Of a stretch of 64,000 nucleotides of DNA, positions 11,314 to 64,000 are shown in pieces; position 1 is the first letter of the stretch; each line of letters starts with the position of its first letter. Under the pieces are notes generated by a model. That model made no database searches and was not told the DNA's origin. It saw only the letters and a program-made list of their open reading frames with translations. The DNA comes from Apostichopus japonicus (taxonomy: Eukaryota > Echinodermata > Holothuroidea > Aspidochirotida > Stichopodidae), in assembly GCF_037975245.1 (NCBI RefSeq), contig NC_092572.1, positions 13,458,269 through 13,522,268 of the forward strand, given 5' to 3'. A program made the translations under genes and the position numbers.

Positions 11314-11621
11314 TGGCAGCATCTAACTGCACTATTTGTTCTACAAAGACATCATCTGAGTAAATGCAAAGAATGGCGTAACGACCATAGTCTTCATTCT
11401 TTACGTTATAAATTATTAAGGCTCCTTTGTCGGTAATGTCGTAATGTCCTTCTTCCCGTATAGGTACTGTCCTTTTCCATCAACTATCTTCACAAGGGGA
11501 GTTGAAGAGGACGTCTTGTCTTTGTACCAGTATACTGCATCGAAATTGTCCAACTTGCAATCCATTGACACATTTTTACCAATAAGAGCGTAATTCCTTC
11601 TACTGCATTGAATTGTGTTGC
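11314..11621 (-). pseudogene. N1 exon 2: V-like Ig domain 1, frameshifted
   Basis: Acceptor CCTTAG|G, donor A|GTGAGT. The exon is 308 nt against 309 nt in N2 (40840-41148) and is otherwise collinear. One base is missing near 11471-11478, where N2 has a run of six A on the sense strand and N1 has four A followed by GG. The shifted frame soon meets TAA. Before the break the Ig features are visible: the first cysteine (VSMDCK) and the tryptophan (VYWYKDK). After it, in the original frame, DYGRYAILC is the DxGxYxC strand F. Either real decay or an assembly indel. Confidence 0.7.
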
Positions 11622-12947
11622 CTAAGGATAAAATATAAACATATGGGGTAGATTACAGCTAAAATGAGAGATGAATGTTCTATATCGAAACATGATCGCA
11701 ACAGTCTCGGAAATGGACGTAATGTATTCTTCGAAAGGAACTTTTCAAATACATTTTCAGTATTTTTATCAATACAAAATAAAAAGAAGGTCAATCCACA
11801 AAGTTGTATATATCATGGCGAATTTCTAATCAAATGGTTATGGACTATGGTTGTATCTGCAAGTAACTCACCAAAAAATGTAAGTCAAATATTGGTTGTA
11901 CGAACTTTTCCTTAAACTGTCAGTTATTTAACACATTTATTTAACACATATATCAACTATTCTATAAATTTATCTCGTTAGACTGCACTGTTTTTATTGT
12001 AATGATGTGTTGTTTTTGTGATCGTACTCTTCTAAATGTTATTACCATTTAGTCGTGCAAGATGCGCAAGGTACACAATATCGTAGGCTCGTCCTGATTC
12101 GTCCATGAAGAGCTCGTACTTTTAACCTCTCTTAGCCAAGTCTCTGGATTGTACTATTTTGAATAAGGCTATCACGCAAGACTTTCTGGTATGCCTGATA
12201 TCAGCTAAGACATTACCTTATGGAATTTTTGAAAAGTTGACATTAGTTCTAGATACAAGCATATGTGTAAAAAAAAATACATAACTGTTTGCTGATACTA
12301 TTTCAGTAATTAATACTTCAGATACGCCAATGATATGCGCTACTCTTCCGTCGTTGCACACGCCTGAATTGGTGCTGAAATACATTTGCACTTATTAAAA
12401 TGTCATCGTATTTGTTCAATAAGTTGTTAAGTACACTAACGCTTTGCCCATTACATGGAACGTTCAACAAGGAGGCTGGTCGTTAACATTACGTTGCCAC
12501 AACCCGGATTGTATGGTACAGTCACAGATTTGTAGCATATCGTCAGTCAGTGCTTTACCCAGTACGTTTCTGTATGTGATTTTGAAGACAGTTTGTTCGT
12601 TTATTGTCGCAGTAGTTACTTCCTCTAGCCATAAACCTAAGTGTAAATATGGTTTATCTTTAGTTGAAATACGACCCATTAAATGCGGAAAATGGAAACC
12701 AAATCTAACACCGATGTTTGTTATTTTCTAGGTCTACATACTTCGTTATTTTGTATCGAAACCAATTTACTAGATTATCGATTAAAAGGTGTTTTCGTTG
12801 AAATAGTTGTCCTTTATGAAGCATGCCCAGAATTAATTGCAATAAAAAGATGAAATCAAATCTACCAGAGCACAACCCGAGTTAAGTGTTAGCAATCATG
12901 ATGTAAATGAATTGTTTAGTACGCTAAGTATAAAGTCATATACTTAC

Positions 12948-14797: not shown

Positions 14798-15321
14798 TTG
14801 ATAGATATTCAGATCTGACTAAGTTAACTATTTGAACATTAATAACTAAATATTTACTCAGAAACAGGTTCTTAATATTTCTAACCATTACCAAATTCAC
14901 GTGCAAATACACAATATTAGTAACATGCCTAAATATTCCAGTATTGAGACATTAATAATTCCAGATCTGATATCTTATTACGATCTTATTACCTAGGCAT
15001 ATTGAAATATTGAAATGCAAGCTATTTATACATTAAGCATTAAATTAACGCCATAATGATATCTGAATATATCAATATCTAGTCATTAATTTAGACTGTA
15101 CTTAAATATCGAGATGAAAGCTCGTTTAAATATGTAACCATCATACATTGATACATCAAAATAAAAGTTATAAGTGCGTTGATCAATGATCGTTGACATG
15201 CACTTAGAATGTCAACACAAAAACTCCGTAGCAGTCCTTTAAACTCATCTGAATGATGTGCTATGTAACTTTACATTGCTACAATATCACCATTAACACT
15301 CGAATGGTAAACGCGGATATC

Positions 15322-15373
15322 ATGTATTTAAAACGTGTGTTATTATTAATGGCTGTCAGCCTAGCTTTTTCAG
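15322..15373 (+). CDS. K1 exon 1: signal peptide
   Basis: The reading MYLKRVLLLMAVSLAFS, with donor CAG|GTATGT, phase 1, is a clear hydrophobic leader. K2 49443-49494 is nearly identical. Confidence 0.8.
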
Positions 15374-15481
15374 GTATGTATAGTTTGTTTTCCTATGTTT
15401 ATGTGAACGAATATATGACAGTACATTAATGTAAACATTGCAATTCCATTTTTAAAATAATTATTTTCTATTAACAAACAG

Positions 15482-15814
15482 GCTTCCCAAACGGAAAATT
15501 TCAGCAATGTTTGTGGAATACGAGTTTGAGCAAGAAGGTTTCTTTGGTACCTTGCCGAGTATCTAACGACAATGGATTGTGCCTGGTGTGTCCCATGGAT
15601 ATATCTGTGTCCAGCGATGTAATTTGGAGACGGCACGACGAAAGGATTTTTCTGAATGAACATCGATTGGTTGATGATAACATTTTGCGGGATGTGTGTC
15701 ACCCTACATTTTCCTCCCTTTTCATCCCAACTGTTACCTTCCATAACGCAAACGAGACGTACCAATGTAAAAGTCAGAATGGAACTACCGTGACGTTTAT
15801 ACTGAGAGTTATAG
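15482..15814 (+). CDS. K1 exon 2: Ig-like domain 1
   Basis: A 333 nt symmetric phase-1 exon with acceptor AACAAACAG|G and donor ATAG|GTAGGT. The Ig core is visible: cysteine in LCLVCPMD, tryptophan in SDVIWRRHD, and the strand F cysteine in NANETYQCKS. An N-glycosylation site (NET) sits next to it. K2 49605-49931 is highly similar. An overlapping minus-strand open frame is a shadow. Confidence 0.8.
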
Positions 15815-16001
15815 GTAGGTACCGATACAAAGTGACATGCTTATATTCCTATTTAATACAAAATCAATCCGCTATAAAATAACTTGAGAACAGTATTGTC
15901 AGTCCCAAATATTGATATCTCTAAGGCCAAATTCATACTTAACTTGATATATTACAGACACAATTTCATTCATGCAATAAATTTTTGTTCCTTCAATTTA
16001 G

Positions 16002-16295
16002 TCCATCCTACACTTTCGATTTCAAAACAGTCAGCCGGGTCGTTTTGTTCAGAAATAATGAAAAGACTAGAATGCATTGCAAATGACGTTTTGCAGCCAG
16101 TGACGATGAAGTGGACAGTGAACAACAATGCGATTTCAAGTAAAACATTTTATGAGATTTCGAATCAAACAGTTGCATGGACGAAGACATTCAACATCCT
16201 TAGGGAAACTGACGTTGTTAAATGCAAAGTGTCTGGACCGTATATCACTCAGGTCACAACGTCATTCAACTGCTCTCGAAACGATGAAGTGCTAG
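16002..16295 (+). CDS. K1 exon 3: Ig-like domain 2
   Basis: A 294 nt symmetric phase-1 exon (acceptor CTTCAATTTAG|T, donor CTAG|GTAGGT). Core residues are RLECIAND, MKWTVNNN and VVKCKVSG, the C...W...C pattern of a C-type Ig domain. The K2 exon 50397-50690 has the same length. Confidence 0.8.
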
Positions 16296-16522
16296 GTAGG
16301 TCAATTTGATTAAATTCCTAACATTCAGGTAATCATTTATCAAACTGACAAAGTCGATAATTTGATCATTCTTATTATTCCGTGACACACTGAGTTAATA
16401 GACGAAGTGTCTTAAACATATCCAGGTAAACAGTTCTGTTCAATATTAATAAGCAATAATGTAATGACGTAGTTTATGTTTCATGTGACGTTTGATGCGT
16501 AAATACATTTATATATACATAG

Positions 16523-16541
16523 GTGTGTGTGTGTGTGTGTG
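16523..16541 (+). repeat. (GT)n microsatellite
   Basis: A short GT run in the K1 intron after Ig2. Confidence 0.9.
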
Positions 16542-17024
16542 GGCCCATATGCGTGCGTATGTGAGTGTACGCAGCACAAGCCTTGACAGGGGTAGACTCG
16601 GCCCTGATATTTTGATGAGAAAAGCCTCGGCTATCTTTGTACCATAAACTAAATCGAAAGCGAAAGGTTAGTAAGAACGAGTTCATTGAGACTGCAATGT
16701 CAAGTGCAAAACATAAACTATCAAATTCACCATGAAAAGAAAAACTTGAAAACTTTTGTTGAACTGCAACAGCTGAACGGAACAAAGAGTATTACAGTAC
16801 ATTTTTGATACAAAATCTAATAGTAATATTAAATACGAAGTTATTCAGAATGATTAAATTGAAATATAACGTGAATACTTTTAGATACTAGAAATTATAT
16901 CTGAAATTAAGAACTAACTATTCTCAATGCACAAACCAATTGATAACGAGAACGATTTTAAGTAGAAAACATAATTTAAAACACAGTAAATTACATAAGT
17001 TTCTTTTATTGAACCTAGCTACAG

Positions 17025-17150
17025 ATGAGCACAATTCAGGATCCGACGGGACGAAGTTACTACTGGTTGTCTTTACAATCACTCTTCTTTGCTTTATTGC
17101 TTTGATCATAATCCTTACAGTCACATTCATCGTAAGGAGAAGTCAACAAA
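17025..17150 (+). CDS. K1 exon 4: transmembrane helix
   Basis: A 126 nt phase-1 exon with acceptor AGCTACAG|A and donor AAA|GTAAGC. The segment LLLVVFTITLLCFIALIIIL is a strong single helix followed by the stop-transfer residues VRRSQQ. It is not visibly similar to the TM exon of K2 (51358-51474). Confidence 0.75.
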
Positions 17151-17896
17151 GTAAGCTGTTATGTTAGATTTACTTGTCATGTGATGGTCTTTTTACCAAA
17201 CAGCTGTTCAGAAGAAACATTTAAATATGGTTACATACAATTTGTGAGATCTGATTAGAATAGCTATGCATAATTTTAGCAATGACGAAAGCGTTCCAAA
17301 CCCTAATCATAGTGGAGAAAGATGACTGAATCCGAGGGAAGGGACAAACATCGAGAGGCAGTGAAGATGAAACTTGAAGAGTCAACCACAACTTTAACTC
17401 AAATTTCTAGCACTCCAAACTTCATTATTTTAGTGCCATATTACATTTCTTAGCTAAAACAAATAAGTTAAAGTGATTTTATTAAAGAGCACTTCTTATT
17501 TTAATAAGAACGGGTTTTGGCATGGTCTCTCACAAGACATGGAGCACCTGACCACGGTGTTGCCATTCTCACCTACCCCTACCCAAACCAACTCAATAAT
17601 CCATGTTTTGTCTTTGCAAAGAAACTCATCGTAATTAGTTATAGTTGATTCTTGAAACAAAATCCATTCCGTATCAAATTGCCGTTTTTTATTCATTTTT
17701 AATTTCAGTTCATATGCTTTGAGATTCCATGTTGCACTTGTATTTATTAAACGTGGTTGTACCGAATATTAGTCCATCAGAGCGAGCAGTGTTAGCAAAT
17801 AACTCCCTTGTTTACACACTAGGCCTGCATGGGTATTTGTAGAATTCAACAAAAAATTCTGACATTGAACTCTTTCTTTCTTTTATCTTCTTCAAG

Positions 17897-30948: not shown

Positions 30949-31070
30949 CTATCGGTTTGCTACTTCGTTCGCTATCTCATAAGGATCAAAGTTTAATTCA
31001 TGTCCACTTGTTGCGTGATGGTGTTTCTCGGCAGCTTGATATAGTTTATGTTGAATAGTCTGGTATTGTC
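30949..31070 (-). CDS. N2 alternative terminal exon
   Basis: A strong acceptor (TTTTCTTTACTTTTCAG|G) and a phase-1 frame QYQTIQHKLYQAAEKHHHAT with more to follow, ending PYEIANEVANR and TAG. The preceding exon ends in phase 2, so an extra exon would be needed between them. The unit 3 copy (63084-63151) stops early. Confidence 0.45.
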
Positions 31071-34000
31071 CTGAAAAGTAAAGAAAATTACTTTATAAAA
31101 ATAAATGTAAAAGTAACCTTCAGTGAGTGAGCATATTCGACCCATGTGAGCAAGTCAACTGTCAACCCATGTGACTTCAAAGTGCTTTCGCTAAGTAGAT
31201 TAACTAAGATTAATTCGAGGAACCTCAAAGTCAGAGGTTAAATAGGTACAATGCTTTCACTGTATTGGTTTTAATATCTCCAAACTGATGTCTGTGGGCA
31301 TTACATTTTAGACCGGTATTGATAATATAAACACAGTATAGTCGTTGCTGACGTAGATTCGAAATAATAAAACTAGTGGGTGCTTGTGAGAGTGTCGAAG
31401 GTTCCATTACTGTTACCAAGCTATCACGCAAACTTGTTCTACTCCACTGTACACCATATGCATTACCATCAAAGATACTTTCCAGTTTTGTAAAATATAT
31501 GTTTACGGTTCCTCCGATACTTTTCTTGGGGCTTTTGTACGAAATGTTTTCAACAAGAGTAGTTGAAACATTTTTACTTACGCTGCATAAAACATTGGAG
31601 GGTTCTTCCAAGTTCCACTTTTGAGGTCCAAGAATTTTTCGTCCCTAAAGTCATCCCAAGAACGTCTACTTGAAACTGCAAAATAAATGCATCGAGATCA
31701 ATCTGAGATTTCATTCTGCATGGCTGCTTTCAATAACACACAAAGTTAAAATCACTTGTTTTGTATATGGTGTTCATTATCTTCGACAGTGTAAACGATA
31801 CTTATTAAGTTTAGTTTTAGCAAAAATTGAGATCATATCACTAATAAATTACATGAAAGAGCAAAACCGATGCTGAGGAAAAGATTGAAAAGCCATAATC
31901 TAATGTTGTATTTAATTGTATAAGCAATAATTATTCCTGTCGAAAATTATAACACTCACTACAGATCTGCAGCTTTGGTTCCATTTGCGTTTGAAAAAGA
32001 GTTGTATACATACTTTGAGTTAAGATATAGCAACATCTACAGCGGGTGAAAAATTGATGCATAAATACTGCAAATGTCGGGGATAAAATTAGATTTATGT
32101 TACAAAGTAAAGAGGCAACGGTTTCAGCTTTCCGAATTAAACATCTGGATTATTTATATTGTAACATATTTCACATAACATATATGACTTACACGTATAC
32201 CAGTCATTTACCTTTACAAATACAAAAACAATGAATGCATAATCGTCTTTTGAGGTGATGGCGAATGCAGAACAATTGTTTACAAATTATATTATATTTG
32301 CTCTTCAAACTAAGCCGCAAGCGTTATTGAATTCCTCACCCACTCTCGGCATACACTACTCTCGGTCTACAAGAATTAATAGTTTTCAAAGATTTCGTTT
32401 GCCTTCATCGTAAGAGCAAACACATTAGCACAAGAAAACACACAATTAACGTATGGTAATTGTAATAATTTACTTACTTTGTATACTTGTTAAAGCTTCT
32501 TTGTCTTGGTATTGGTCACCAACCTTTACAGGAACATTGTATCCTACAAATCTACAAAACAAAATGATAATAAACGAGAATAACAATCTCTATATATAGA
32601 ATCTTGTTTACCGGATACTGAAAATACCAATGAAGTTTTGATTCAGCATCTGGCTACTGTGTACCTGTGGTTTTTATGGGACGGAAATTACAATAATTAT
32701 TACTCCAATCAGTTGTCGTCTTATTCCAGTGGCAGATATTATTGCTATTGTTTGAGATGTAGATTTTCTACTCTGTAAGCTGAAAATCTCATATCAAGAT
32801 TTCGTTCTTAACGTTAGTTGTGATTGCTTGAATGTTGGCTATTTTCTCGGAGAAACTAATGCTTCCTTTCTCTATTATGGGAATCAAAGTAGGTGGTCTG
32901 TTCAGGTGTCATCATGGCAAAACAATTCTAAAGCTACACATTTTGAGTAACTTTGATAATGTTTTTAATTTTTCCTTGTAGGGATACATTTAGAAATGTT
33001 TGGTTAGTGACAGATTTCGTTCTTAACGTTAGTTGTGGTTGCTTAAATGTTGGCATTTTCTCGGAGAAACCAAGGCTTCATTTCTATATTAAGGGAATCA
33101 AAGTAGGTGGTCTGTTCAGGTGTCATCATGGCAAAACAATTCAAAAGCTACACATTTTAGTTACTTTGATAATTTTTTTAATGTTTCCTTGTAGGGATAC
33201 ATTTAGAAATGTTTGGTTTGTGACAGATGTTATTATCATTTATAATTACATCACTATGCAACTGCTTTGAAAGAATAATATGTTTCTCATTTGTGAAAAG
33301 GTTTTATATTAGAAAGGAAGTATAACAAAATCAATATCAATATCAATGGTGACATTGCTATATTTGATGTAGCTAAATACATTAATTTAAGAGCTTCATG
33401 TTTTACTAAAATGTGTCAACGATAAAAAACACTAATAGAATGTGGCTGTAATCCAGGCTGGTGGAAAATTCACTTGACCGATAAACACGCATGGGGAGTT
33501 TCCCTTTTAGAATGATTATTAAGTTATTACTAAAGTCCTCAAATAAATACCGAATCTTTGCTGTGACATTTCTTTTCGCCCACTGTACGATCTTCATTAG
33601 TAAACCATCCTTTTGTTCCAGATTGATGTGATTTAACTCGATGATTTCAATCTCAGGCAACTCCAATTGAAGCAGAAAATCCAATGGGCAGTCTGCACCG
33701 AATGACATAGCTGCAAATTTTACCTGCGAAATAGATGAGATAAGACATGAGTTAATCTGTCCTTCTTTCTTATGGTCGTAAATATCGAAACTGATAGCAA
33801 TAAAATGATTAAAATAAGTGTTTACCCAATGTGTCATTATCGTGGTATAGCTTAGTGCATTTTATGTTATGGAATGGGCCATTTGATGACAAAAAAAAGA
33901 GAGTTTATAACGAATGTGACTTATCAGGGTCAATTTAAGAGAATAAACATTCCTCGCTATGTCTTTGGGTATGAAATAAATTTTCACTTTGTAACTGTTT

Positions 34001-37000
34001 GAAATACTGCATTCATATGAAAAAGTATCTGTTTGTACGAAGGAGTTGTCGGCGTGTAACAAAGAGCGTTTAATCGTACGAATTAATGATTAATTGGTAA
34101 GACCGGGTTAGTTTGTACAAAGACTGTAATAAAATCTAAGAGTTATATTATAATTTCTAGTAGCATGATGTGTAATGTATTCCATAAATATTTAGTAAAT
34201 TAATATTTTAGACAAGTCTTGTTATAATGAAAATTGTTTACTATGGTTGTGCTTCTATTGTATTATTATTCTCAAACTGATGCTAAATTGTATAACGCTG
34301 ATAAATCCCCCACACTGTCTTTCTTCCTATAATAGTTGTGAAAATATATTTCGCTTGAGTGTTCAGAATCAATCGACAGATTACAGACGATTACAAAATC
34401 ACTAATGTTTTATACAGTTTGCTACAAATTAGGAACGCTATGGGCGTTTGGAGACTTGTTTGTGACTGATAAAACATGGGTTAAGAAGATAGCAAAGCCG
34501 TTACTCACATTCGAGCGTAAACACTTTCCAATGAAGAGTTTGAATGAATTTTGATGATATCGCTCATCTAATCGCACAACTTTCATGGCAATATGCGACG
34601 TGTTCTTCAGCAGAAGGGAAAACTGTTTGACAGAATCTTCATTATTTTTCATATCAAGAATATCCTCATCGTTTTCCGATTCGTAGATGCAATCTGCTAA
34701 CGTATTCCAGCGTCTAGTTTCTAATAGGTGTTTCAATGTTTCATCTCTCATTTTATTAGATATGCCGCATATGAACCGCAATATTCGGGAGATTCTAATA
34801 TTTTCTTCTGTCTTGTTGGCTTCTAATGCGCTCAAGAATTTCTTTGAAGCGACTAAATCCCCTGAAACAATGTATTCTGCAATACAAAACTCTTGAATAT
34901 AATCATGAGAGAACATATTGTAGTCACATTGTGACACGCCAACATTCTGCAACGATTTGATAGGTTTTATATATCCAATTGATTTAGCCATTTCTATTCT
35001 ATGAGCTTGAAGACGTGTTTCGTTAAGATCAAAGTTTTTAATCGATTCATTGATATCATAATTTAAAGATGCTTTTGCGAGTTCCATTCGTAACGGTGGT
35101 AGCGCACTTAGAATAGCTTCGTTACCGTGCTTCTCCAGGAAGCTTCTGTCGAGGCAAGTTATGACTGAGCTAACTAATGAAGACATTTTGTTGATATTCA
35201 GCTCAAAGAATGACACTTTGATGTTTAGTAGCTTTGATACTATGATATGAATAAACATAACAATAAACAACGGCGTGTCCTTAAAGTCTGTTACTAAATC
35301 ATTTTGATTTAAAGTATAAATTGTTTTTTCTCTTAAGTCTGCATATATTTCATCCTTTCCTTGCTCCTTTTGTTTACTTCGTGCTGCATTGGCTAAACAA
35401 TCGTTATGAAGCGTTTTCGTTTGACATGGTTTGATGCGTTTGTAATACTCAATTGTTTTACCGACGTATGTTTCAATCTCTTCTGTATTGAATCCTAACA
35501 TCTCGACTTTAACGTATACGTGTTCGTAAATGCATTTTGACTGATCTATCTTTCGTGACGTAACCCACAACCTCAAATCCGGGTATTGATTCAAATTGGA
35601 CTCGTTCAATAAACGTTTTAATGAAATATCACTAGGTGAGACATCAGGTGGGGTATTTTCGTGTTGGCTTATTTCGTCTAACCCATCCAGCAGTAGATGA
35701 CATTTCCTTTTCAGTATAATGTCACACAGTTGTTCAATTGGTATGTTAACATCTCCAGGTAAAGTTTCATGTAATTGTTTCCCAATACCGGCATTAATGT
35801 CGATTCCTGTCAGTGGCAGAATAAAAAGCATTTCTTTTTTCTTTTCATTAAGTTCCTTCTTTGACCACTGACATGCTAGATACTGACAAAGTGTTGTCTT
35901 CCCATGGCCAATGTCTGCAATAAACAATGCCCTCTTAATGTTTTGAGAGTACTTTGGATCGAGCAAGGAATTGCTTGTTTTGATTTCTGTGGGGCTTTCC
36001 GGATAAGTAACATTAAAAATAGCTTCGGCGTAGAGCTCATCGATCAGAACCTTCTTTCCCCATGGTACTGGTTTTATATAGCTCATCGACAGATATTGAT
36101 ATTGAAGATGATTCATCAACTTGTCCATTTGTTCTTAAAACAAGAAGAGTCACAAAAGAATAGTTTAGTCTGAAGTTTTATAAACATTCTTGGGCAAAGA
36201 ATAAGTGTGAACAGAATAAATTTGGTTACAAATAAATAAATTTGTTTATAACTTTATTCATTTTTGAAAAGAGGATTTGAGTTATTTATGTAACATCATT
36301 TTCATATTTATACTTGAGTTTTGTGTCATTTTCTTAAAGGGACAATTCCCTAGTGTTGCTTCCTTTGTCTTTACATGTCAGGAGAAAATAAAGTTGTCAA
36401 GACTGAATAATACACTACATCATTACCTTCTGATAAAGGCGATGAATGTGTAAGAAGGGGTTCTGTTGCACTCTGTGAAAGATAATAACATGACAGTTAA
36501 ATGTTAATGATTAAAAATTGACATGTCGCATAAGAAATAGCGATTCGTGTACTTGAATATTTAGCAATACAAAGTTACATTCGACGAGACGCAATTACCA
36601 TTTTCGAGGAATATAATGCAAACAATATGTGATCAACACGTAGATATTCTAAAAGAGCTAAATAACATCTCAATTATGCAATGGCAACAAGTTAAATTTG
36701 ACATTATTTGTATTGATAAATTTATCAGCAATTGCTACCGTAATTATTATTTGGTGTATAATATAAGTCAAACATTGTTATAAAGCAATATTTCCAAAAC
36801 TCAAGGAACGCTTTAAGAAAGTCTGAAATATCATAATATGAATAATTAGTACTATTTATACTGAACATACCAATTCGGTGTCATTCCCTTGATGTTCGTT
36901 TTTGGAGTTGTCCTTCCTTACTAAAACAATTGTTAACAAATTGTTTCAAAAAAACGTTTTTAAAATTGAAAGAAAAAAAAAGAAATTCATGAAATTCGAT

Positions 37001-40000
37001 TTCAGAAAAGGTTGATACTGTTGAGCTACGTTTAAACGATGTACAATATAAATATGTCATCAGTAATGCGTTGGTTCTGCTAATATTTTAATCTACTCAC
37101 TATTCTAGGACGTCAACCTATCCTCATAATATTCGGGGTACAAGTGTACATAAATTATATTTAACCCATTCTTAAGATAATATTAAAACTATACCATATA
37201 ACATATACACAATTACTCAAATCATAGCAGAACATCTAATGATATGATTTCATTGTCTGACATGCTAAAATGTTGATCTGCTGATTAAACCTGCTTCAAA
37301 CAGAGAATTAACAGTTATGGGGATATCTCTATCTCAAGGCAATTCTTAAATGTCAAGGTAGCGAACAATTAAAAAAAGTGATCAAAACCACCAATAATCA
37401 TCCGTATGGTAGTACGCAGTCAAATAATCTAGAAAACCAAGCGCAATGGGTAAGTGACGAAGCAAGGAGCGGCTCTAATGGGCACACAATCTCCAGATTA
37501 CTATAAGTATCGTTCTTCAGTGGCTGGCCAAGAAACGTTTTGAAATTTGAACCAATGAACAGTGTGACAATTTTATTTAATGGTTTTAAAGACGTGGAAA
37601 GTATATGAGATTGTGTACACTGTTATTGGATATGTGTTTACAAGGTAGCTAGATTTTCAGATAGCTATTGACCTCTGCTAGAGATTTTGGAGCACATCAA
37701 TAGATGTCAGTAAGCTACATTTTTTTTCATATTCGAAAGCACACTGAACATACATAACAAACTGCTTCAACTCATGAACATGGAAATTGATCGAATCCTT
37801 AGGAATTTAAGCCTGTGTGCCGCCGAGTGCCAAGGATGACAACTAGGACCTTTTATAGTAGAAGAGTCGGTACCAGTTCCACGAATACTACTGAAACTCG
37901 ACCCATTGCAGAATGCGCGCGATCCCCGATCCCACGTTTTGGTTCATATGGCATTGTGTCATGCCTTTAAATATATTGGTTCCTTCTGTGGAACTAAGAC
38001 AAATCGTCTTTTCTCGTGTTTTGAAGGCCTGTTAGTACAGCGAAAGGCTTGGAACATCGGCATTTTCACAGTACTGGCAGCGTGGGGATAGCGTATGCTC
38101 AGCTGTGTTTACAGAAAAAAAGATGAACGGATGACGTCACACTGCAGGACTTATGAAAACGTCATGAGTCGGTTTCGAACGTATACGTCGTTGTAACTGA
38201 TAACGAATTTGCATCAGTTTGCCATCGTAGATCAATGATATGGATTCTAAGTTACCAGTGTGGTATTTCGATATTGTTTTAGATGCTCACAACAGTTTCT
38301 ATAACCAATCGGATTATTATTTTAAAGCAGTCAGTTTAATCATTTCAAACGTTCACTATAATGTACTGGCTAACCAGATGTTCATTAAGAATATTGTTCT
38401 TTCTTCAACGTTAACTTCTAAATATACAGAAAATTTTACTTTCGTACAGTCTCCTCAGCTTATTACTCTAATTATAATCAATCGTCCGAGCACCACACCT
38501 AACCCTTACAAATCGTAAACGACTGTATTGCCGTAATGGTTTTATTAATGAAACACGGTTATTTTTTTATTTCAGTGTTTCACTTAGTTCGATCATGTTT
38601 TTAACATAAAACTAAACACAACCAGATCGCAATCTACCCATATGACCTACATAATAGTTAGCAATAATTCGCGAAAACAGCAGGCCTTAACACATGTTAA
38701 CCCTAACTTGATTATGTGGGTTCTGCGTACTCTTTGTCAAAGCGAATTCTGAGTAAGACATAAAAATGCCATATTCAAATGTAAGAGAGCTAACTAGTTA
38801 CCATCCATCTCTTTATGAAGCTCATATCACATTGTGAGAAATGTAGGTTACACTTTTAATAGTTTTTCCATGGTAGAAATTTTGTATAGGGAATGCGCTG
38901 GAATTGAGAAAAGCTGAAAGGATTTTTTTTGTATGCAGTTATTAGCTTTGCTTCTCTGAGATATAGTCTCTGACTAAAGCCTAGTGTCAGTTTAATTATC
39001 TAAGAGTTAGTTAGTTATAATATGTACACTTGTGATCTTAGTGTACTAGTTTATAGTCATTGGATATTAAGATATCGAAAGCGCAATTGATATATTTAAA
39101 TATAAATTTACTGCCATGTCGTTAGTCCCACTTCTTTTTCGAGCAACCAATTTATCTGATATGTTTGGTATTAAGGAAATATGATAGTAACACATAGTTG
39201 ACATAACCATACAAAACGTTCCGTTTTTAGCGGATGTTTTGAACGCTTCAGACGACAGTATATGAAGTTCTTATTAGTAATCAGAAGACGTGCATAATGC
39301 TAAAAGACAGTCCAAATGAATCTGACATTTTCTTCATGCTATCGGAAAGATATTAGTTTCAGTATGATATTTAGAATATCTTTGTGACACTTTCATTTAC
39401 TACGTCTCCTACATGAAGGACATATACCACTTGAAAATCAGAATCAAATACTTACGATTCCTCTTAATAGCAAAGCAGATAACGACAAAGGTACAGAGAA
39501 CTATTAGTGAAAGAGCGACGATCACGGCGAAAAGCCAGTGATCTTCAAAGAAAGTGAGCACACTGTGTTCCAAAGACACCGTAGGTGTTGCTGATACAAA
39601 GCATCGATCTGCATGAAACGAAAATAATTTGAGATATATTTAAGGTATATTTAGAGCCAATTTCATCACATTCCTAATAACCAGTTTATTATATCATATA
39701 TATCTACATTTTAGTTATAATTGCTACAAAGAATTCCTAATCTTGCACGTTTATTTGATGTTTGTTAAATAAACAAGCAGTGTTATAATTCATTGAATGA
39801 CAAAACAGTTGTTCATTTTCAAGAAATATGTACCAAAGTGAACTATTCAGGTAACATTTAGGTGTAAGACAAAGTAGTAATGGTAATGAAAACGTTGTGC
39901 AAGTTATATCACCGTTAAACTAATTGGGAACAACAAATTGGTTTCATAGATTTCAGCTTTAAGTGTTCACGCTTCACTTTCGTCATTTGAAGGTGCTCCC

Positions 40001-43000
40001 ATTACATTGTTTAACTTTGACTAGTCATAGTATATCAATATTTCAATGCTTCACCGAAAATCTCCTTGCTACTAAAATATAACATGCAAGACTTACCAGA
40101 AGTAAGTTCCAAGATACTATCACTGACGCTGAAGTCATTCTCCCCAATGACCGTGCAACGTAGTCTGATAGTTGTATCGCAATTCGGTATAAGGACTACT
40201 ATCATAGCTCGGCTATTCCATGTATCACTAGAGTTATCATATGTGACCCCCTCTTCTCTAAATAGAACAGTATAATTAACTACTGTTTCAAGTAATAAGC
40301 CAAGATTAACAAGTGGACGAGCGTTGTTGATGATACAAGTGACGTTATGGATCTCATTTGGAGCAGAAACACACTGACAGGAAGAGCAGTTTGTAATAGC
40401 CGGGCAACTTTGATGAGGCTGAACTGTAGGAGAAGGAAGTAAAAGTAGTGTCCGGTAGTATAATCGTTACTCTAATTTTAAGCAATGGAAAATATATAAA
40501 TTGTTACTTTCCTACGAAAATGCCGCCGATGACCTGTTTTAAGTGACATTAGCCCTAAAATATTTGATGCGTGTGAAAAAGTTCTTTATTTTCAATACAA
40601 AAACAAATATGCGCAAACAACCAACAAATAAACAAAAATGGAAGTATTGATTTTACCACCATTCTTCAGCTTCCACTTTGGCCCTTTTTAGAAAACAAAA
40701 TTGACTAAATTATGTGCATGTCTTTATACTTCTAACGCAAACGAAGATGGCATAAGATGAATACACAATGAACTACTGTGGGAACTCTGTGGCTACTCTT
40801 TAGTAACTTTTTGAAAAACTAAATAGTCATCATACTCACTGGCGGCATCTAACTGCACTATGTCTTCTACAAAGGCATCATCTGGATAAACACAAAGGAT
40901 GGTATAATGACCATAGTCTTCAGTCTTTACGTCGTAAATTATCAAGGCGCCATTGTCATTGATGTCGTAATGTCCCTCTTCCAATGTAGGAACTGTCTTT
41001 TTTCCACCAACTATCTTCACAAGGGGAGTTGAAGAGGACGTCTTGTCTTTATACCAGTATACCTCATAGAAATTTTCCAAGTTGCAATCCATAGACACAT
41101 TGTTACCTATGAGAGCGTAATTCCTTCTAGTGCATTGAATTGTGTTGCCTGAGGATAAAATCACCCAAAAAATGAGGCAGAATACAACTTAATGTTCCAT
41201 ATCGAATCGTAATCACAACACTCTCTGGAATTCATGTATTTTCAAAGGAAAGTACTTAAAAAGTATCTTTCTTTCTTTTTTTTTTCAATTATAAAAAAAG
41301 AAGAAGGTTGTTCCGCAAAGTTGTATAAATCATTGCAAACTTAATGAATAAAATGTTATGGACTACATAACACACATGTTTACAATTTTCCAACTCATCC
41401 ATGAAATATACACCGAAAAATCCGAATTTTTCTTTTTAGCATTTAAATTTGTTACCGTAAAAGTCATTGTAAGTAAATATTTTCAAAATATTTCAAGGGG
41501 TCAAGTCGTCTCGAAGTACCGACATAAATCTATTTTCCAACAAAAGGTTCAAAGTATTTTTGACAAACAACGTGATTCACTGTAACGCGAGTAATGCTAA
41601 CGGTAACGTACAAAGACAGGGATTATAGTGTTCAATATTACACTTAACTATTAAGGTCTAAGTCAAGGTAGGGTTTGTATAGGTTTATACATATGTTTAT
41701 GACTTCTTAGTCATAAACTACAGTTTCAGCCTAGGCCTACTTCCACCAATTACCTAGGAAAGTCCAAAAGATCTTTCATAATAATTCCTAACGTGCAAAT
41801 GTACTGCTGTAGATAATGAACGGTTGTCAAATAAGCAGTGATCCCTGGTTTTTAACTTAAATTTCACTTCTAGTGTAAAAAACAATTTGCATTGCAATGC
41901 GCATGCCTAACTTAATTTTCGGCAAAATTGGGGGCTTTTTGTTTTGCATTTAAAGGTCTAATGCATATGCGCTTAATGTAAAACTGACCCATACTATATT
42001 AAAATGATATTTTTAATAGTGCTTTGGAGGGGGTAAGGAGAAGATGTGACTTACATGACACCCCTGATACCAGCATACCAACTACAACATTCTGGCGGCA
42101 TGGCTGTACTAAATCTGTAATGTGTATAGTCTATTTATAAGACAGCAAAGAGACTATCATAGCGCAAAACATGAATACTGTTTTTTTTCCCGGTTGAATC
42201 GAATTAAAACAATAAACAATATTGGCTATTGTTCTTTCTTTACACTTCTGATAGAGATTATAACAAAACAATACTTCTATTGGCCTTTTTGTATCCTAAA
42301 TTTACGAGCAGTTTCTTACAGATAAAGAAAGGATCAATAGCCTACACCAAGCCCGACTTACATCTCGAACCATAATGTTTAGATAATAACTCACCTCACA
42401 TACCTACACTGCAGTTAACAGAACAATATACATCAATGTATTTGGCTTTAGAGACATATATGAAGCTTATTAGTTCTGCCCCAAAGCACTGATGTATCTA
42501 AGTCATACACACACACACACAAAACGGTTACAATTAAAAACCTTGGTAATAAATTTAATGATCTATAATTATTATTATTTGTCATTTGAGTTGTATCTGG
42601 TTTGTTGTTTTAGCCAACTTTTCTGAAGTCATCTTAAAATAAAATGTAATGAAATTGAAGGACCACAAACTATTGAAGAGTGGCACTGCTAGATATAATC
42701 AATAAGTAATTTAAACTTTGAGAGGTTAGACAACTAACTACAAATCTACATTTAGTCGTCACAGTATACAAAACTTGTCAGATTCCAGTGAGAACAGTTC
42801 AGCTAAGATTGAAGTCTTACCAAGTGATGGTGCGGGTGATTTTGAATTTTATCCTGGAATGAGATGATGCTCTTCACAAAAATTAAGCTTAATCTAATAT
42901 TTGCTTACAGTTTCATGTACACTGTTACAATGTAAGTACTATATATGTGGATTAGGAGGTTTGAGGATTGTTACGTCAAAATTATCACCAGTACCCCATG

Positions 43001-46000
43001 ATGTAATCATAACAATCCAGACACTGTGGTTCTTGTAACACACAAATCTTGTAGTACATGGTGGTAGGCCTACAGTTGGTCTTCACCTTGTTGATTTTTG
43101 GTACTTCTCTTCATCAATCAAAGTAATATTCCAAACTGGCAGTTGTGAAGATTAAGGTCAAATTATGCGGTTTATGAAGTTAACTAGAGGGAAAATGCTT
43201 TTTTTTAAATTAACATTTGCAGAAGTCAGTAGTCAACAGAAGGTCATAGGGTACGTTCAGTGCCGAAGCTCCAGGATAATGATGCAAGTTGAAATATTTC
43301 TTATTCTCTCGTAACCACTTTTTAAATTACAAAAGCAATCTCAGAGACAAGAATTTATCTACAATTGAAGGTATTCCAAAGCCCAGAGGCTGTACTGCTT
43401 TCTTCAGTTCGCTTGTAACTATTGAACGTCAAGACATAATTACATTAGACAGATTCCAATTTAAATGCATTGTATATAAAACCTCCTATGATGGTCCAAC
43501 GATAGCCTACTTTTATCCAATGAAGGGAAATTGGACGTGAGCGAAAGTTATTCAGTTTTGCTTGACGCCGCCATTATCAACAGGAGATATTCACACTCAA
43601 TGTTGACGTTTGAAGAATACTTCAACGCATAGTACGTTATCAGCTATTGACGGTATAGGTAGCATTTCAAGGACTAATTGACAAGGACATATTGCCCAAT
43701 CTTTTTCAGAACGGCGTCTTTTGCATCCATTTCCGGTTTCACTTTGTCGGCAAAATATGTCTCTCTCTAGATCACCCCCTCTCTAGCTTTTAGACTTATA
43801 TTGCTACTTTTCGGCGGTATTACATCACTTTGATCTCGCTCTTAACCATTGCTCGCAATAGTATGTACGTTAATAAAACAATTGTCTGTCACATGTGATA
43901 AAACCCGCAAAAAATGGTTCCGTCTCCTTTATATATTAAAAACAAGGACCAGGAGTAAACTCGTTTACTTACAATAAATGATTTGATTATCTTTTAACGG
44001 AATTAATTCACATATTTTCTGTATTAAATATGCATCAAAAGTTAAGATTATTTGTAGCACAGTGTTAACCTTGCCTCAATGTCGATTGGTTTATCCATTG
44101 CACATCTTCAACGGAACATGAAACTGACTTGCAATCCAACCTTTTCAAAATGTTTGACTAACTGAAGGAAGTTTACGTAAAGATTATTTCATGAAAGAGC
44201 TGCTTATTTATCACATATAACTTTAGTGCAATGTTGCAGTTGCTACATATTTGGTACGTTGTCTTTCATTTACAACCTGGATACTACAGTATTTTAGTTC
44301 CCATTGATTCAGCTCCACCTGTCACACATTGTCAAAAATACACACCCTGCTAAATTATTCTTACAAGCCATTCATGAATATGTAATGTATAATACGTATT
44401 CTTGTTAGACAGTGTAATTTACATCAACTTATACAAAAATAATATATTACTAGGAACTTTATGACTCTGAAAGTCTCACCGAAATGCTATAAAGTTTCAA
44501 CAGAGTCTTATAAATCAGAATTGAATGAAGCGTTATTCTGGAGTTACCCTGCCTATGTATTAGTTAAATCATGGGGGAATGTGCAACGGAACCTTCCAGA
44601 AACCGTCAGCTAAGCTTGTACTCCTCCTTCCGCACTAACCTTAAAATACTTTGACCTAATACAGAGGCCGCTTTTATTCCCCAAACTGCTTCAGGAGGAA
44701 TGCCGCCGACAATTTCGATCCAGTGAAGGAATTTATTGACTGTAGGAACGTGCATATGTTACTCCAATGAGAGCCCCGAGTTCCTACAGGGATTTTAGTC
44801 TTAGCAAGTCCCTGGTTGTGCGTTTTGGTCCAATGGTTTTGAACGGTAATTTTTTTTTACGAATATTTTACCTGAAAAACGTAAGACTATGCCGATAGTG
44901 TTAAATACATTGCAAGTACAAAGACTGATAGTAGCATTGATGCAATGGAAACTATTCTGAAAAATAAATAGCAAATAATGTGGCAAAAAATATAAAAATA
45001 CTGCATTATAAATTACGGGAAGACCCAAATAAAGCTGAAAACAATGTAACTTGATACAAACTTGATTTAAATTGCATCAAAAAGATGTATCAATCATGAA
45101 CAGCAAATTAAAAAAAGTAAATATAATTCATATTTGTTACTGAAAGGACTACAGAAAATTTGTATCGGGACGTACATTTTCAGATAGAAAGACGATAATG
45201 TTGATCCTGAATGACATATTCCTTAGAAATAGTCAAAATTTAGAATGGAGAAGATTTTTGTTTTTGTAATAGATTTGAGATATTGATCTTTCCAAATCCC
45301 ATTTTGAACCTTCCATGCTTCTTTGCAATTTGCATCTATTTACAATTCTTTCCTGAAATGCCAACGAACATGGTGTGAAGCTTTTGTCGACGATGTTGTA
45401 AACTAAGCATAAAATTGACAAATACATTGCCAAATCGAGTATAATTAAAGTGATCATAGCTCCCAATTTCAAGCAGATATTATGAATGATATGTACAGGG
45501 CTGCTAAAGTTTCGTTTTTGGAATGTATCATTTCATATTTACTGTAAAATTCTAAAGATGTTTGGAAGCATTACAGTTATAATAATTTTCCAAAATTCGG
45601 AGAAAGAAACGATGAATTACGCAGTTATTCATGTTTATAGAATAATATGTGTTCTTTATTGATAAAAACTGTGATAGATTATGTTCAACTCCACCCCCCC
45701 CCACTAATTTGTTTCCTTTCGGTATAATATTACGTAGGGTACCGGGCATGTTGAATTATTGTTAAATAATCCCAGAACTTAAGGATTCTTAGCATATCAT
45801 ACAAACAAACATAACAATAGACAATATGAATATAAGTAATTAATGTTAGAGCTATTCGTAATAAAGAAGGTACTGTTTCTACCAAAAACTGGAAGTTGCT
45901 TAGGAAATTATCCAGTGTTTGTGCAACATGAGTAAAAGTAGCTAGCGGTTAAATTAACCTCCAACGTCTAAGGTTTAAATTAACGAAGAATTATTACTTT

Positions 46001-47175
46001 TAACCTCAAGTGGACCTTGCTTTCAAAAATATCGCATGATGTTGCTGCTGGGCAGGTATAATAAAATTTCCTTGCTTCTGCAAGTAACATATCATAATAT
46101 GTAACACAAAATATTGGTTAATTCTCTGAACTTTACCTCGCACTGCGAGCTATTTTACACAGTTCAGCATAAAAAGAATAATGGCGAAGAATGCAAAAAA
46201 TATCTATCATACCAATACATTTTAGACCAACGAAAAGGTAGCCAATCTTATCTATTAACTGTTCTCATTACTTTATCTCGTGAGACTGTGTTGTCCTATA
46301 TTTTAATGATGAGTAACTTGTGTTATCGTACTCGTCAAAATGTTAACACCTTTTCATAGTTTTAGATACAAGCATATGTGAAATAAATATATAAATGTGT
46401 GCTGATACAATATCAGTTGATACTACTTCAGATAAGCCAACGATATGCTTACTCTTCCGTCAAAGTCAGCCGTGAACAGTGCTTGACTTTCACTTGCACA
46501 AGCCATAATTGGTGCTTGAATACATTTGCACATATCATCATGTCATCGTTTTGGTTTAATACGTTGCTAAGTACACTAACGCTATGCCCAATATATGAAA
46601 CGTTCAACAAGGAGGCTGCTCGTTGACATTACGTTGCCACAATCCGGATTGTATGTTACAGTATCTAGAGTTTTACGTCACAGATTCGTAGCCTATCGTC
46701 AGTAGGTTCCTGTATGTGCTTTTTGAAGACATTGTCAGTGTTCGTTTATTGTTGCAGTAGTTACTTCCTTGAGCCCTAAACCTGCCGTGTAAATATGATT
46801 TATCTATATATGAAATACGACGCATCAAACACAGGCATTGGAAGTCAAAGTTAAACAGACGTTTTCTATTTTCTGGGTCTAAATATTTTGTTATTTGCAT
46901 CGAAAGCACTTTACTAGATTATCGACTAAAAGGTGTTTCCTTTGTAATGATTGTACATACCCGGAATTGATAGCAATAGAACAAAATGAAATCAATTCTA
47001 CCAGAGCACAATCCGAGTTAAACGTTTACATTCATGATATAAATGAATTGTTTAGTACGCTAAGTATAAAGTCATATACTTACCCGCAGAAAATAAGCAT
47101 ATGACAAGCAAAGAAATTTCTAATATATGAGCAGCCATTTTGTCTCCGTCAAACTTGGTAGTAACAGCAAAGAAC
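30949..47175 (-). CDS. Gene N2: Ig-Ig-TM-NACHT receptor, unit 2, best-preserved copy
   Basis: Exons: 47084-47175 (ATG at 47138), 40840-41148 (Ig1), 40097-40423 (Ig2), 39456-39608 (TM), 36871-36920 and 36427-36472 (linkers), 34509-36133 (NACHT), 33551-33723, 32478-32551, 31578-31675 (possible stop at 31578-31580), and an alternative terminal exon 30949-31070. Every junction up to 31675 is phase-compatible and open, giving about 969 residues if translation ends at 31578. Ectodomain: two Ig domains. One TM helix. Cytoplasmic side: polar linker, then a NACHT ATPase with canonical Walker A (ADIGHGKTTL) and Walker B (LLLDGLDE). Family knowledge: NACHT proteins oligomerise on nucleotide exchange. 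Function as an immune receptor is inference. The alternative, a separate Ig receptor and NACHT gene, is disfavoured by the two bridging linker exons. Confidence 0.7.
31231..31611 (-). other. Conserved open segment with Ig-like spacing, unassigned
   Basis: An open frame with NVLCSVSKN, YGVQWSRTS and SFIISNLRQQRLYCVYI, the C...W...C spacing of an Ig fold, then NAHRHQFG. The unit 3 copy (63325-63576) keeps NSGPTCNAHKHQFG. Its frame differs from the overlapping exon 31578-31675. It may be the missing phase 2-to-1 exon or a fossil exon. Confidence 0.3.
31578..31675 (-). CDS. N2 exon 10: C-terminal, stop overlapping a donor
   Basis: Acceptor TTTATTTTGCAG|T, phase 1. It reads SSRRSWDDFRDEKFLDLKSG and TWKNPPMFYAA, then TAA. 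That stop overlaps the donor-like GC|GTAAGTAAA at 31581, so either the protein ends here or splicing continues to the terminal exon. The GTWK motif is shared with the N1 last exon. Confidence 0.45.
32478..32551 (-). CDS. N2 exon 9: C-terminal
   Basis: 74 nt, phase 2 to 1, acceptor AGTTTTGTAG|A (inferred), donor CAAA|GTAAGT. It encodes FVGYNVPVKVGDQYQDKEAL then TSIQ. Homologous to N1 1693-1757. Confidence 0.5.
32798..33226. repeat. Direct tandem duplication, 215 bp period, two copies
   Basis: 32798-33012 and 33013-33226 are near-identical (both begin GATTTCGTTCTTAACGTTAG and share GGTGGTCTGTTCAGGTGTCA). It lies in the N2 intron between exons 8 and 9. Confidence 0.9.
33551..33723 (-). CDS. N2 exon 8: C-terminal, LRR-like stretch
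   Basis: 173 nt, phase 0 to 2, acceptor CATCTATTTCGCAG|G, donor ATTCG|GTATTT. It encodes ADCPLDFLLQLELPEIEII and a helix rich in K/Q ending NVTAKI. The same donor position is used in N1. The frame can run on to 33406, but the shared donor argues for splicing. Confidence 0.65.
34509..36133 (-). CDS. N2 exon 7: NACHT ATPase domain
   Basis: 1625 nt, open, phase 1 to 0, acceptor TCTTCTTGTTTTAAG|A, donor AAT|GTGAGT. Domain order, numbered from the ATG at 36128: MSYIKPVPWG (15-24); Walker A ADIGHGKTTL (71-80); LFILPLTGID (101-110); Walker B LLLDGLDE (145-152); sensor-1-like LWVTSR (187-192); and HDYIQEFCIAEYI in the C-terminal half, the NLR winged-helix H..QEF motif. The first Walker A glycine is Ala in both copies. 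An ATG lies near the exon start, but N1 lacks it, so it is probably not the natural start. Confidence 0.9.
36427..36472 (-). CDS. N2 exon 6: cytoplasmic linker 2
   Basis: 46 nt, phase 0 to 1, acceptor TTATTATCTTTCACAG|A, donor GAAG|GTAATG. It encodes SATEPLLTHSSPLSE. It converts the phase-0 end of linker 1 to the phase-1 start of the NACHT exon, which is strong support for a single transcript. Confidence 0.6.
36871..36920 (-). CDS. N2 exon 5: cytoplasmic linker 1
   Basis: 50 nt, phase 1 to 0, acceptor AATTGTTTTAG|T, donor TTG|GTATGT. It encodes LRKDNSKNEHQGNDTEL (first residue split), basic then acidic. It pairs with N1 7019-7062. Confidence 0.6.
36921..39455 (-). other. N2 intron between linker 1 and TM
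   Basis: Most of 37750-39420 is collinear with 8360-9780 of unit 1. No exon is identified. Short open frames here are not conserved between copies. Confidence 0.6.
39456..39608 (-). CDS. N2 exon 4: transmembrane helix
   Basis: 153 nt, phase 1 to 1. Stalk SLEHSVLTFFEDHW, helix LFAVIVALSLIVLCTFVVIC, then AIKRN. Donor ATC|GTAAGT. Confidence 0.8.
40097..40423 (-). CDS. N2 exon 3: Ig-like domain 2
   Basis: 327 nt, phase 1 to 1, acceptor TCTCCTACAG|T, donor TCTG|GTAAGT. Open throughout; CPAITNCSSCQC near the start, HNVTCIINNARP and IRLRCTVIG later. Several N-glycosylation sites. Confidence 0.75.
40840..41148 (-). CDS. N2 exon 2: V-like Ig domain 1
   Basis: 309 nt, phase 1 to 1, acceptor ATCCTCAG|G, donor A|GTGAGT. 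Intact frame with NNVSMDCNLE, VYWYKDKTSS and EDYGHYTILC: first cysteine, tryptophan and the DxGxYxC motif of a V-type Ig fold. Confidence 0.85.
41149..47083 (-). other. N2 first coding intron, expanded by about 4.6 kb
   Basis: The equivalent N1 intron is 1.3 kb (11622-12947). Its ends are recognisable here near 41160-41430 and 46100-47080, so roughly 41.5-46.1 kb is inserted or unit-specific sequence. I find no transposase, reverse transcriptase or clear terminal repeats in it. Short features only: a CA run at 42509-42520 and a C run at 45692-45701. Confidence 0.5.
47084..47175 (-). CDS. N2 exon 1: signal peptide
   Basis: Acceptor TGTCTTCCAG|G, ATG at 47138, reading MAAHILEISLLVICLFSA, donor GG|GTAAGTA. 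A further 5' UTR exon ends with the donor at 47313. Confidence 0.8.
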
Positions 47176-49442: not shown

Positions 49443-58573
<9,131 letters not shown>

Positions 58574-62310: not shown

Positions 62311-64000
62311 TCCGTGAAGAAGGCAACGATGTGAGTACGAGATCATAGCTTATATTAATTGTCCGTGCGGTTGCTAGCCCCATTGGTAGGCGAACAAAAT
62401 CATCTTCTGTTTTGACTCCGGATCGTTTGGTCTGCAGGTCGAATTTGCATGTTCATCGGGTGGGCGCTCTGAATAATTCCTTCAACGTGATCCTACGAGT
62501 GAACTGATATCAGTTGAAATAAAAGCCGACTGGTTCTACGTTTTCGGTAGGACAGATAAAAGCCCTTTCTTTAATGAAGAGCGTTGGTTCTTCGTTCGTC
62601 AGTTGTCTTAGCATAGAAATATTTTACTGTAAACAATCTTTTAAATATAGTACTGACAAAGGAAGACCGAGTAGATGCCAAAATTGAACAGGGTGAATCT
62701 TTACAAGTCTTCACTTGGACGTAGAGATAACAAACTTAATGTACAACTGTTTGGCTTAAGCAACATTTAAAGTAGAATGGCATACTGAACACGACACACT
62801 ACAACAAATCCGTTTTGGTGGTGACCATGGAGCACGGAGCTATTAACAGATGTAATAGCTCCATGGTGTGACATAATTAAAGAATAACGGGTTGCCCTGA
62901 CGGAATCCGTTTGGATTGATGTCAATGTTGTTTACACTTTACATTAAGGAAAACAACGTATTGTATTGTGTAGCTCTTCAAATACTCTTCTTTCATTCAG
63001 TGCATGAGAATCAAATCGGTTACATCAAACTATTGGTTTGCTAATTCGTTCGCTAATTCATAAGGATTAAAGTTGAATTCATGTCAACTCGTTGCGTGAT
63101 GGATTGTTTCGGCAGCTTGAAATGATTTATATTGGATAGTTTGGTTTTGTCCTGAAAAGTAAAGAAAAATACTTTATAATCAAAAATTTATTGGTAACCT
63201 AGTGAGGGAGCCTGCTCAACCCATATGAGCAATTCAACAGTGAGAATGTCAACCCATGTGTCTTCAAACTGCTTTCGCTAATTAGAGTAACTAAGGCTAC
63301 GTCAAGAAACCTCAAGGTCAGAGGTTAAATGGGTACATTGATTTCACAGTATTTTTTATTCTCTCCAAACTGATGTTTGTGGGCATTACATGTTGGACCG
63401 GAATTGATACATATACACACAGTGTAGTCGTGGCTGACGTTCTGTTGCATTAGGAAGTACCCGTGCAGATGCAAACGAATTCCGCCAACTAGCATTGAGC
63501 TTAAAGAAGTTGAGAAGACATCACCTTTTAGTGGCTCGTCTCCTAGTGTCGGTGGAAAATGGTACTCATCAAACATTCAGACGCTTATAGAGACTAAACC
63601 ATGATTTCTTTCATTATTGATGTAACTCTGCAATCAGTGTATCTTGTGAAATGTATCAACTCTTTTACCCTAGATACTTTGTATGTGTTTGATGTTTTTG
63701 TAGTTAAAACTAAAATTACAAATTAACCTAACTTAAACGAAAAGTAACATATTTCTTACTACGTTCAAAGTGTTCATTCACATGCACATAAGAAGTTTAG
63801 TACCAAGTGATCTTTGTAATTTCCAATGTAATGTCCAATTGTTATATCAAAGTTAACATTTCAAGTGGGAAAGATACATAATATAATTTATCACGTTTCC
63901 TGATAAGTCTACTTTTCACATCCTGCTTTTCACTGCTGGGTCTGCTTTTCACACCCGTTTGTAGTTTTTTTTTTTTACATTTGATATGCTTGTGTACACT
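62311..64000 (-). pseudogene. Gene N3: 3' end of a third N copy, unit 3
   Basis: Collinear with 30163-31640. The terminal exon counterpart is 63084-63151 (acceptor TTTACTTTTCAG|G; GQNQTIQYKSFQAAETIHHA and then a TGA where N2 has GGA). The unassigned segment 63325-63576 keeps NAHKHQFG. The rest of this gene lies beyond the window. Confidence 0.45.
62825..62866. repeat. Small hairpin insertion
   Basis: CCATGGAGC (62825-62833) is inverted as GCTCCATGG (62858-62866), with inner arms GGAGCTATTA and TAATAGCTCC. The sequence is absent from the matching place in unit 2 (near 30785), so it looks like a small foldback insertion. Confidence 0.7.

Follow-up and report, generated by a model that had tools for sequence, protein, structure and literature searches.

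The N2 gene and its exon chain

The window, a stretch of 64,000 nucleotides from the sea cucumber Apostichopus japonicus (C12:13458269-13522268), carries on its minus strand a gene, here called N2. To define its exons, we took 47138 as the position of the start codon and 34422 as that of the stop, and combined GT/AG sites near the exon ends proposed by an earlier sequence-only reading. One combination of candidate splice sites reproduced exactly, letter for letter, the 883-aa public A. japonicus model P0001, which a protein search also returned at 100% identity over the 541-aa N2 NACHT exon query. The exons and the regions beyond them are as follows.

47139-47175, minus strand: putative 5' UTR, adjoining the start codon at 47138
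47084-47138, minus strand: exon 1, start codon and signal peptide MAAHILEISLLVICLFSAG, ending in phase 1 (splicing matches P0001; hydropathy)
40840-41148, minus strand: exon 2, Ig1 (V-set), phase 1-1 (Pfam; splicing matches P0001)
40097-40423, minus strand: exon 3, Ig2, phase 1-1 (splicing matches P0001; Ig-like by a weak fold match)
39456-39608, minus strand: exon 4, stalk and transmembrane (TM) helix, then KRN, phase 1-1 (splicing; structure model; hydropathy)
36871-36920, minus strand: exon 5, linker L1, 50 nt, phase 1 to 0 (splicing; L1-like stretches in paralogs)
36427-36472, minus strand: exon 6, linker L2, 46 nt, phase 0 to 1 (splicing; L2-like stretches in paralogs)
34422-36133, minus strand: exon 7, NACHT and the helical region after it (the form in P0001, which reads on to a stop at 34422)
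34509-36133, minus strand: exon 7 in its spliced form (donor at 34508)
33551-33723, minus strand: exon C1, C-terminal region past the NACHT exon in the spliced form (similar segment in P0007)
32478-32551, minus strand: exon C2 (similar segment in P0007)
31582-31675, minus strand: optional exon C3, of the GTWK type found in P0002 and P0008
30949-31070, minus strand: last exon (a similar tail ends P0007)

The order in P0001 is thus signal peptide, Ig1, Ig2, TM helix, two linkers and NACHT. The sequence-only reading had described these exons as lying on one strand, in order and in compatible phase, with the linkers converting phase 1 to 0 and 0 to 1, and the GT/AG borders of the spliced chain and its exact match to P0001 bear this out. 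P0001 is named isoform X2 and is probably a gene model from the same assembly as the window; gene models with several isoforms are usually based on RNA reads. The left edge that had been given to the gene, 30949, also fits, because splicing at the 34508 donor leads to the last exon at 30949-31070. Without C3 the spliced form of N2 is predicted to have 977 aa and to end in YEIANEVANR; inclusion of C3 shifts the frame of the last exon and gives 976 aa. Both types of ending occur among relatives (P0007 versus P0002 and P0008). An ITIM or ITAM in the last exon was considered and rejected, its tyrosines fitting no canonical form of either motif.

Domain composition and membrane topology

Pfam places a NACHT domain (49.6 bits) and a V-set domain (28.2 bits) in P0001, both above cut-off, and an HD2 match below it; Ig2 has no Pfam match in this protein. 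The NACHT exon contains the P-loop GHGKT and the motif LLLDGLDE. Canonical cytosolic NLRs carry a C-terminal LRR and an N-terminal CARD, PYD or death domain, whereas Pfam detected none of these in N2: no LRR was matched in P0001, P0002, P0003 or P0005 at E up to 1, and no CARD, PYD or death domain in P0001, whose N-terminus is instead a signal peptide followed by Ig. The search for LRR and CARD took in P0002 as a model with C-terminal exons.

An AlphaFold model of the 883-aa protein, built from 8 sequences, had a pLDDT of 46.8 and was poor outside Ig1 (about 65-80) and the TM, with Ig2 at about 50-65; in it, strands cover the two Ig exons, and residues 255-281 form one helix. A separate model of the NACHT (pLDDT 63.3) returned NLRC4 and NOD2 chains at all of the first ten Foldseek ranks (E 5e-13 to 3e-12), with low TM-scores (0.34-0.38 to the query) and an rmsd of 16-19 A. 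By sequence profile, the nearest solved proteins to the N2 NACHT were NLRC4 and NLRP3 chains.

The TM helix is followed by the basic stretch KRNLRK and preceded by acidic or neutral residues, which predicts that the NACHT lies inside the cell. Together with P0001 itself, the V-set and NACHT matches and the exon order of paralogs (see below), this supports a reading of N2 as a type I membrane receptor, with its Ig domains predicted outside, a single TM and the NACHT tethered inside, much as the sequence-only reading had proposed. The opposite orientation has been published for a protein of the same species, AjNLR-new (PIK48001.1, 1197 aa; JBC 2026, PMC13133943), whose authors are reported to place the NACHT outside and the Ig inside on the basis of predicted TM segments and of recombinant fragments that bound to cells. 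For N2, we consider such an inverted topology extremely improbable: its signal-peptide-like N-terminus lies on an exon of its own and basic residues stand just after its TM helix, while the first of the two TM segments predicted for AjNLR-new may itself be a signal peptide.

Relatives of N2 in the genome

We searched the A. japonicus genome (671.6 Mb, 35 contigs) with the N2 NACHT exon and found 52 places, 10 of them N2-type (68-100% identity), of which three lie at 13.49-13.59 Mb and seven at 18.15-18.32 Mb (L009-L018). Upstream DNA was taken for six paralogs (5.5 kb each, and a further 5.5 kb for one), and Ig1- and Ig2-like exons stood upstream of the NACHT exon, on the same strand and in the same order, in all six. 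L1- and L2-like stretches were both found in 9 of the 10 N2-type loci, several of them too short to reach significance by themselves (E up to 1.1); the tenth, L013 (upstream region L042), gave L2 alone at E below 2, and P0010, the model matching the ectodomain of the L013 gene, has L1-like sequence.

Searching instead with Ig2 gave 41 places. Taking NACHT partners from the 52 places above, a same-strand NACHT lay within 15 kb downstream at 28 of the 41, against 4 of the 41 on the upstream side, and at 14 of the 14 strongest places. One of the 28 pairs spans 13.8 kb and may not be one gene. The remaining 13 places may be Ig-only genes or may have NACHTs too diverged for the NACHT search. At the level of sequence, N2 thus belongs to a clustered receptor gene family. 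At least 106 NACHT places were seen genome-wide, many of them in arrays on C16, C7 and C12:24-34 Mb, away from the N2 family.

The gene models bear on whether N2 is one gene at all. At least six relatives have public models that run from Ig through TM to NACHT (P0003 and P0007-P0011, with P0007 and P0011 from the BSL78 annotation), whereas the models of three further relatives (P0012, P0013 and P0014) are Ig-Ig-TM proteins that end after the TM, without a NACHT, and P0013 matches the ectodomain of N4. These shorter models would fit a locus in which the model has fused two genes, one for an Ig-Ig-TM receptor that stops after its TM exon and one for a cytosolic NACHT protein; moreover, the last exon of N2 joins its TM exon directly in phase, giving a 321-aa form, although we set this isoform aside as without support. 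The sequence-only reading had likewise named an ending after the TM exon as the case that would speak against it, and the outcome is divided: the public model of N2 runs on into the NACHT, but those of the three relatives stop. Since P0001 joins all exons exactly at splice sites, the spanning models recur in at least six relatives and linker-like exons precede the NACHT in relatives, we regard two genes as very unlikely and continue with N2 as a single Ig-TM-NACHT gene.

Among the protein search matches, family members came from A. japonicus only, and five generic NACHT proteins, including two from the clam Ruditapes philippinarum, made up the rest; two of the searches scored only the best 7996 and 7994 candidates by shared words, so that absence elsewhere is not implied.

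Neighbouring copies

Several further copies lie in or near the window. A plus-strand gene at 15304-17164, with a second copy at 49550-50720 (plus strand), stands head-to-head with the minus-strand receptors and looks like a signal peptide (ATG at 15304) followed by two Ig-like exons. A TM exon with a short tail (17015-17164) is seen in the first copy only, no NACHT is seen nearby, and the second copy is homologous to the first only as far as 50800, short of the TM exon; Pfam Ig matches are sub-threshold in the first copy and absent in the second. At 63033-63149 (minus strand) there is a copy of the N2 last exon with an internal stop, which is probably a remnant because the next 7 kb past the end of the window (L046) gave no NACHT match.

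The neighbour N1 may be impaired. Its Ig1 match (11315-11634, minus strand) is split between two frames, its Walker B region (4792-4815, minus strand) reads LLLDGLKN and its public model, P0005, starts inside Ig2. The NACHT exons of L011 (N3) and L015 each contain one in-frame stop, and P0003, the model matching the N3 ectodomain, is shorter, at 817 aa. Upstream of the N3 and N4 NACHTs (L039 and L040) the L1+L2 linker pair occurs twice in tandem, and P0003 contains both pairs, which lengthens the juxtamembrane linker.

Two halves of apparently different ancestry

The signal-peptide/Ig/TM part of N2 has 82–84% amino acid identity to its neighbours N0 and N1, and the three ectodomains are mutually 82-86% identical (N1 in part), whereas their NACHTs are mutually only 25-39% identical, with N0 and N1 at 32–39% to that of N2. 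The comparison with N3 and N4 runs the other way: their NACHTs are 76–78% identical to that of N2 and their ectodomains 37–38%, and the linkers of N2, like its NACHT, resemble those of N3 and N4. Phylogenies gave the same division. In the ectodomain tree N0, N1 and N2 grouped together (99/99) and a clade of N2, N3 and N4 was rejected (p-AU 3e-42), while in the NACHT tree N2 fell with N3, N4 and the seven 18-Mb genes (95/99), a clade of N0, N1 and N2 was rejected (p-AU 8e-87), as was N0 with N1 (6e-6), and N1 and N2 as sisters were mildly rejected (p 0.025). The NACHT table and tree cover 15 of the 52 NACHT places and keep the N3 and C18d NACHTs, which have one stop each, with an X; the weak points of the tree are the long branches of N0 and N1 and the choice of the tested clades after the identity table. 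N1 Ig1, with its frame change, is represented in the ectodomain table and tree by its first 50 residues and was left out of the dN/dS analysis.

At the DNA level the two kinds of homology meet in the intron between the TM exon and L1.

37713-37723, no strand: mosaic junction in the TM-L1 intron, where N1 homology ends (37723) and N3/N4 homology starts (37713)

N1-homologous DNA runs in blocks from 47945 to this point and N3/N4-homologous DNA from this point on, while N0 homology reaches 38886 only. A 250-base scan from 42000 to 32751 found a single switch, with no step showing both homologies except for two short matches (40 and 47 bases) that fall within the coding exon of the NACHT. We considered whether the NACHTs of N1 and N2 might differ by rapid divergence rather than replacement, and rejected this because homology breaks off abruptly at 37723, whereas on the ectodomain side it holds at close to 80%. 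A recurrent breakpoint in common with the duplicated N3/N4 linkers was also considered and dropped, because the likeness between the N3/N4 repeat units continues past that point.

Judged by these alignments and trees, N2 joins an ectodomain of the N0/N1 subfamily to the linkers and NACHT of N3, N4 and the 18-Mb genes. Genes next to each other thus combine an almost unchanged sensor with very different NACHT modules. A mosaic would also result if the assembly had wrongly joined two alleles or two genes, and the protein searches found no independent assembly covering the N2 junction, with no BSL78 protein covering it among their matches. However, the long aligned stretches of both N2 halves have 79-85% nucleotide identity to the compared copies, so wrongly joining the present sequence of N1 to that of N3 or N4 would not give N2, and N0, N1 and N2 share one ectodomain type yet carry three different NACHTs, so that swapping is not peculiar to one joint. 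A mis-join thus appears quite unlikely, and a true mosaic remains our reading.

For N2 against its relatives, dN/dS was 0.30-0.48 for Ig/TM and 0.48-0.49 for NACHT, which indicates purifying selection, on average, over both. Values of dS were similar on both sides of the junction (0.20-0.31 for Ig/TM and 0.25-0.27 for NACHT), that between the N1 and N2 NACHTs being saturated. L1 of N2 against N3 gave a dN/dS of 1.42 on 16 codons, the linkers being too short for selection tests.

Taking the anatomy of a type I Ig-TM-NACHT receptor and the mosaic origin jointly, we hold this account of N2 to be highly probable. The event behind the mosaic was probably an unequal crossover or a segmental duplication. 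Among the matches listed in literature searches no report of module swapping was seen, and in PMC11508797 the words immunoglobulin and transmembrane are absent. The wider proposal, that the germline array trades Ig sensors and NACHT modules between genes through the TM-linker intron and so makes combinatorial NACHT-based membrane receptors, we favour by a little over an even chance.

Comparison with described receptors

The sequence-only reading took N2 for a receptor class not yet described. This has to be given up, as two Ig-TM-NACHT proteins have been published from the same species, AjNLR-new and AjNLRC4 (PLoS Pathog 2021, PMC8699970), and because the architecture is published N2 adds a member and not a class, apparently from a separate subfamily. 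AjNLRC4 is described as having extracellular Ig domains, a TM and an intracellular NACHT, without LRR or CARD, a design that N2 shares; it is reported to bind Vibrio splendidus through its Ig domains and to dimerise after infection, while its intracellular part binds beta-actin and phagocytosis is promoted. A second TM is also reported after its NACHT (PMC8699970). P0001 has a moderately hydrophobic stretch at residues 593-611, about 50 residues past the NACHT Pfam match, and the second TM of AjNLRC4 may be a buried helix of this kind rather than a membrane pass. The likeness of N2 to AjNLR-new is one of description, namely the combination of Ig, TM and NACHT.

N2 is not AjNLRC4, because the ectodomain and qPCR primers of the latter map to another chromosome. 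The qF primer has a single genome match at up to 1 mismatch (C16:4498344), and qR, EX-F and EX-R fall at the same locus, L047, with 0, 1 and 1 mismatches, which puts the AjNLRC4 ectodomain at C16:4.497-4.499 Mb, whereas N2 is on C12. Ectodomain stretches at that locus match N2 at E about 2e-5. The next NACHT exon downstream, L048, is 23% identical to that of N2 (273 columns, E 4e-8). In 47 loci and the window, the two AjNLRC4 IN primers found no match better than 9 mismatches and the AjNLRC4 siRNA none better than 4; the IN primers matched L048 at best with 11 mismatches, so L048 may not be AjNLRC4's own NACHT.

Further afield, NLRs with other domains including V-set are reported from the apodid sea cucumber Chiridota heheva, and V-set is stated there as not identified in sea urchin NLRs (PMC8913654); the likeness to N2 is the combination of Ig V-set with NACHT in a sea cucumber. 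In zebrafish NLR-B30.2 genes, gene conversion is reported to act differently on B30.2 and NACHT, with exon shuffling, so that sensor and NACHT evolve apart as in N2 (PMC4852459). The zebrafish sensors are B30.2 and LRR, however, and N2 switches from Ig-TM to linker-NACHT at a single, mapped junction in an intron.

In the likeliest mechanism, drawn by analogy with AjNLRC4, the Ig pair of N2 would bind microbial surface molecules, clustering by ligand would gather NACHT modules under the membrane and activate them, and active NACHT would signal to the uptake machinery, with uptake following. The step of analogy is long, given the low identity and doubtful ownership of the NACHT downstream of the AjNLRC4 ectodomain primers, and the signalling step taken alone strikes us as evenly balanced. 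The receptor might instead serve cell adhesion or self-recognition: nectins and RAGE are among the first solved Foldseek matches of the ectodomain model, at low TM-scores, and the array is multigene. This fold is nevertheless common to many Ig receptors, and for AjNLRC4 both microbe binding by the Ig domains and a loss of phagocytosis on knockdown have been reported (PMC8699970), so we find adhesion or self-recognition rather unlikely and microbe sensing the better reading.

Implications

With the receptor class itself known, the mapped module swap is the part of N2 worth following. Three neighbouring receptors whose ectodomains stay so alike while their NACHTs differ so widely amount to a natural experiment on the contribution of the NACHT, with the sensor held nearly constant. 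In addition, the signal-peptide topology of N2 bears on the published claim of a NACHT outside the cell for AjNLR-new. If exchange within the array is real, then one sensor type (that of N0, N1 and N2) would be wired to different intracellular outputs, and one NACHT type would be used with different sensors, as in N2 compared with N3 and N4.
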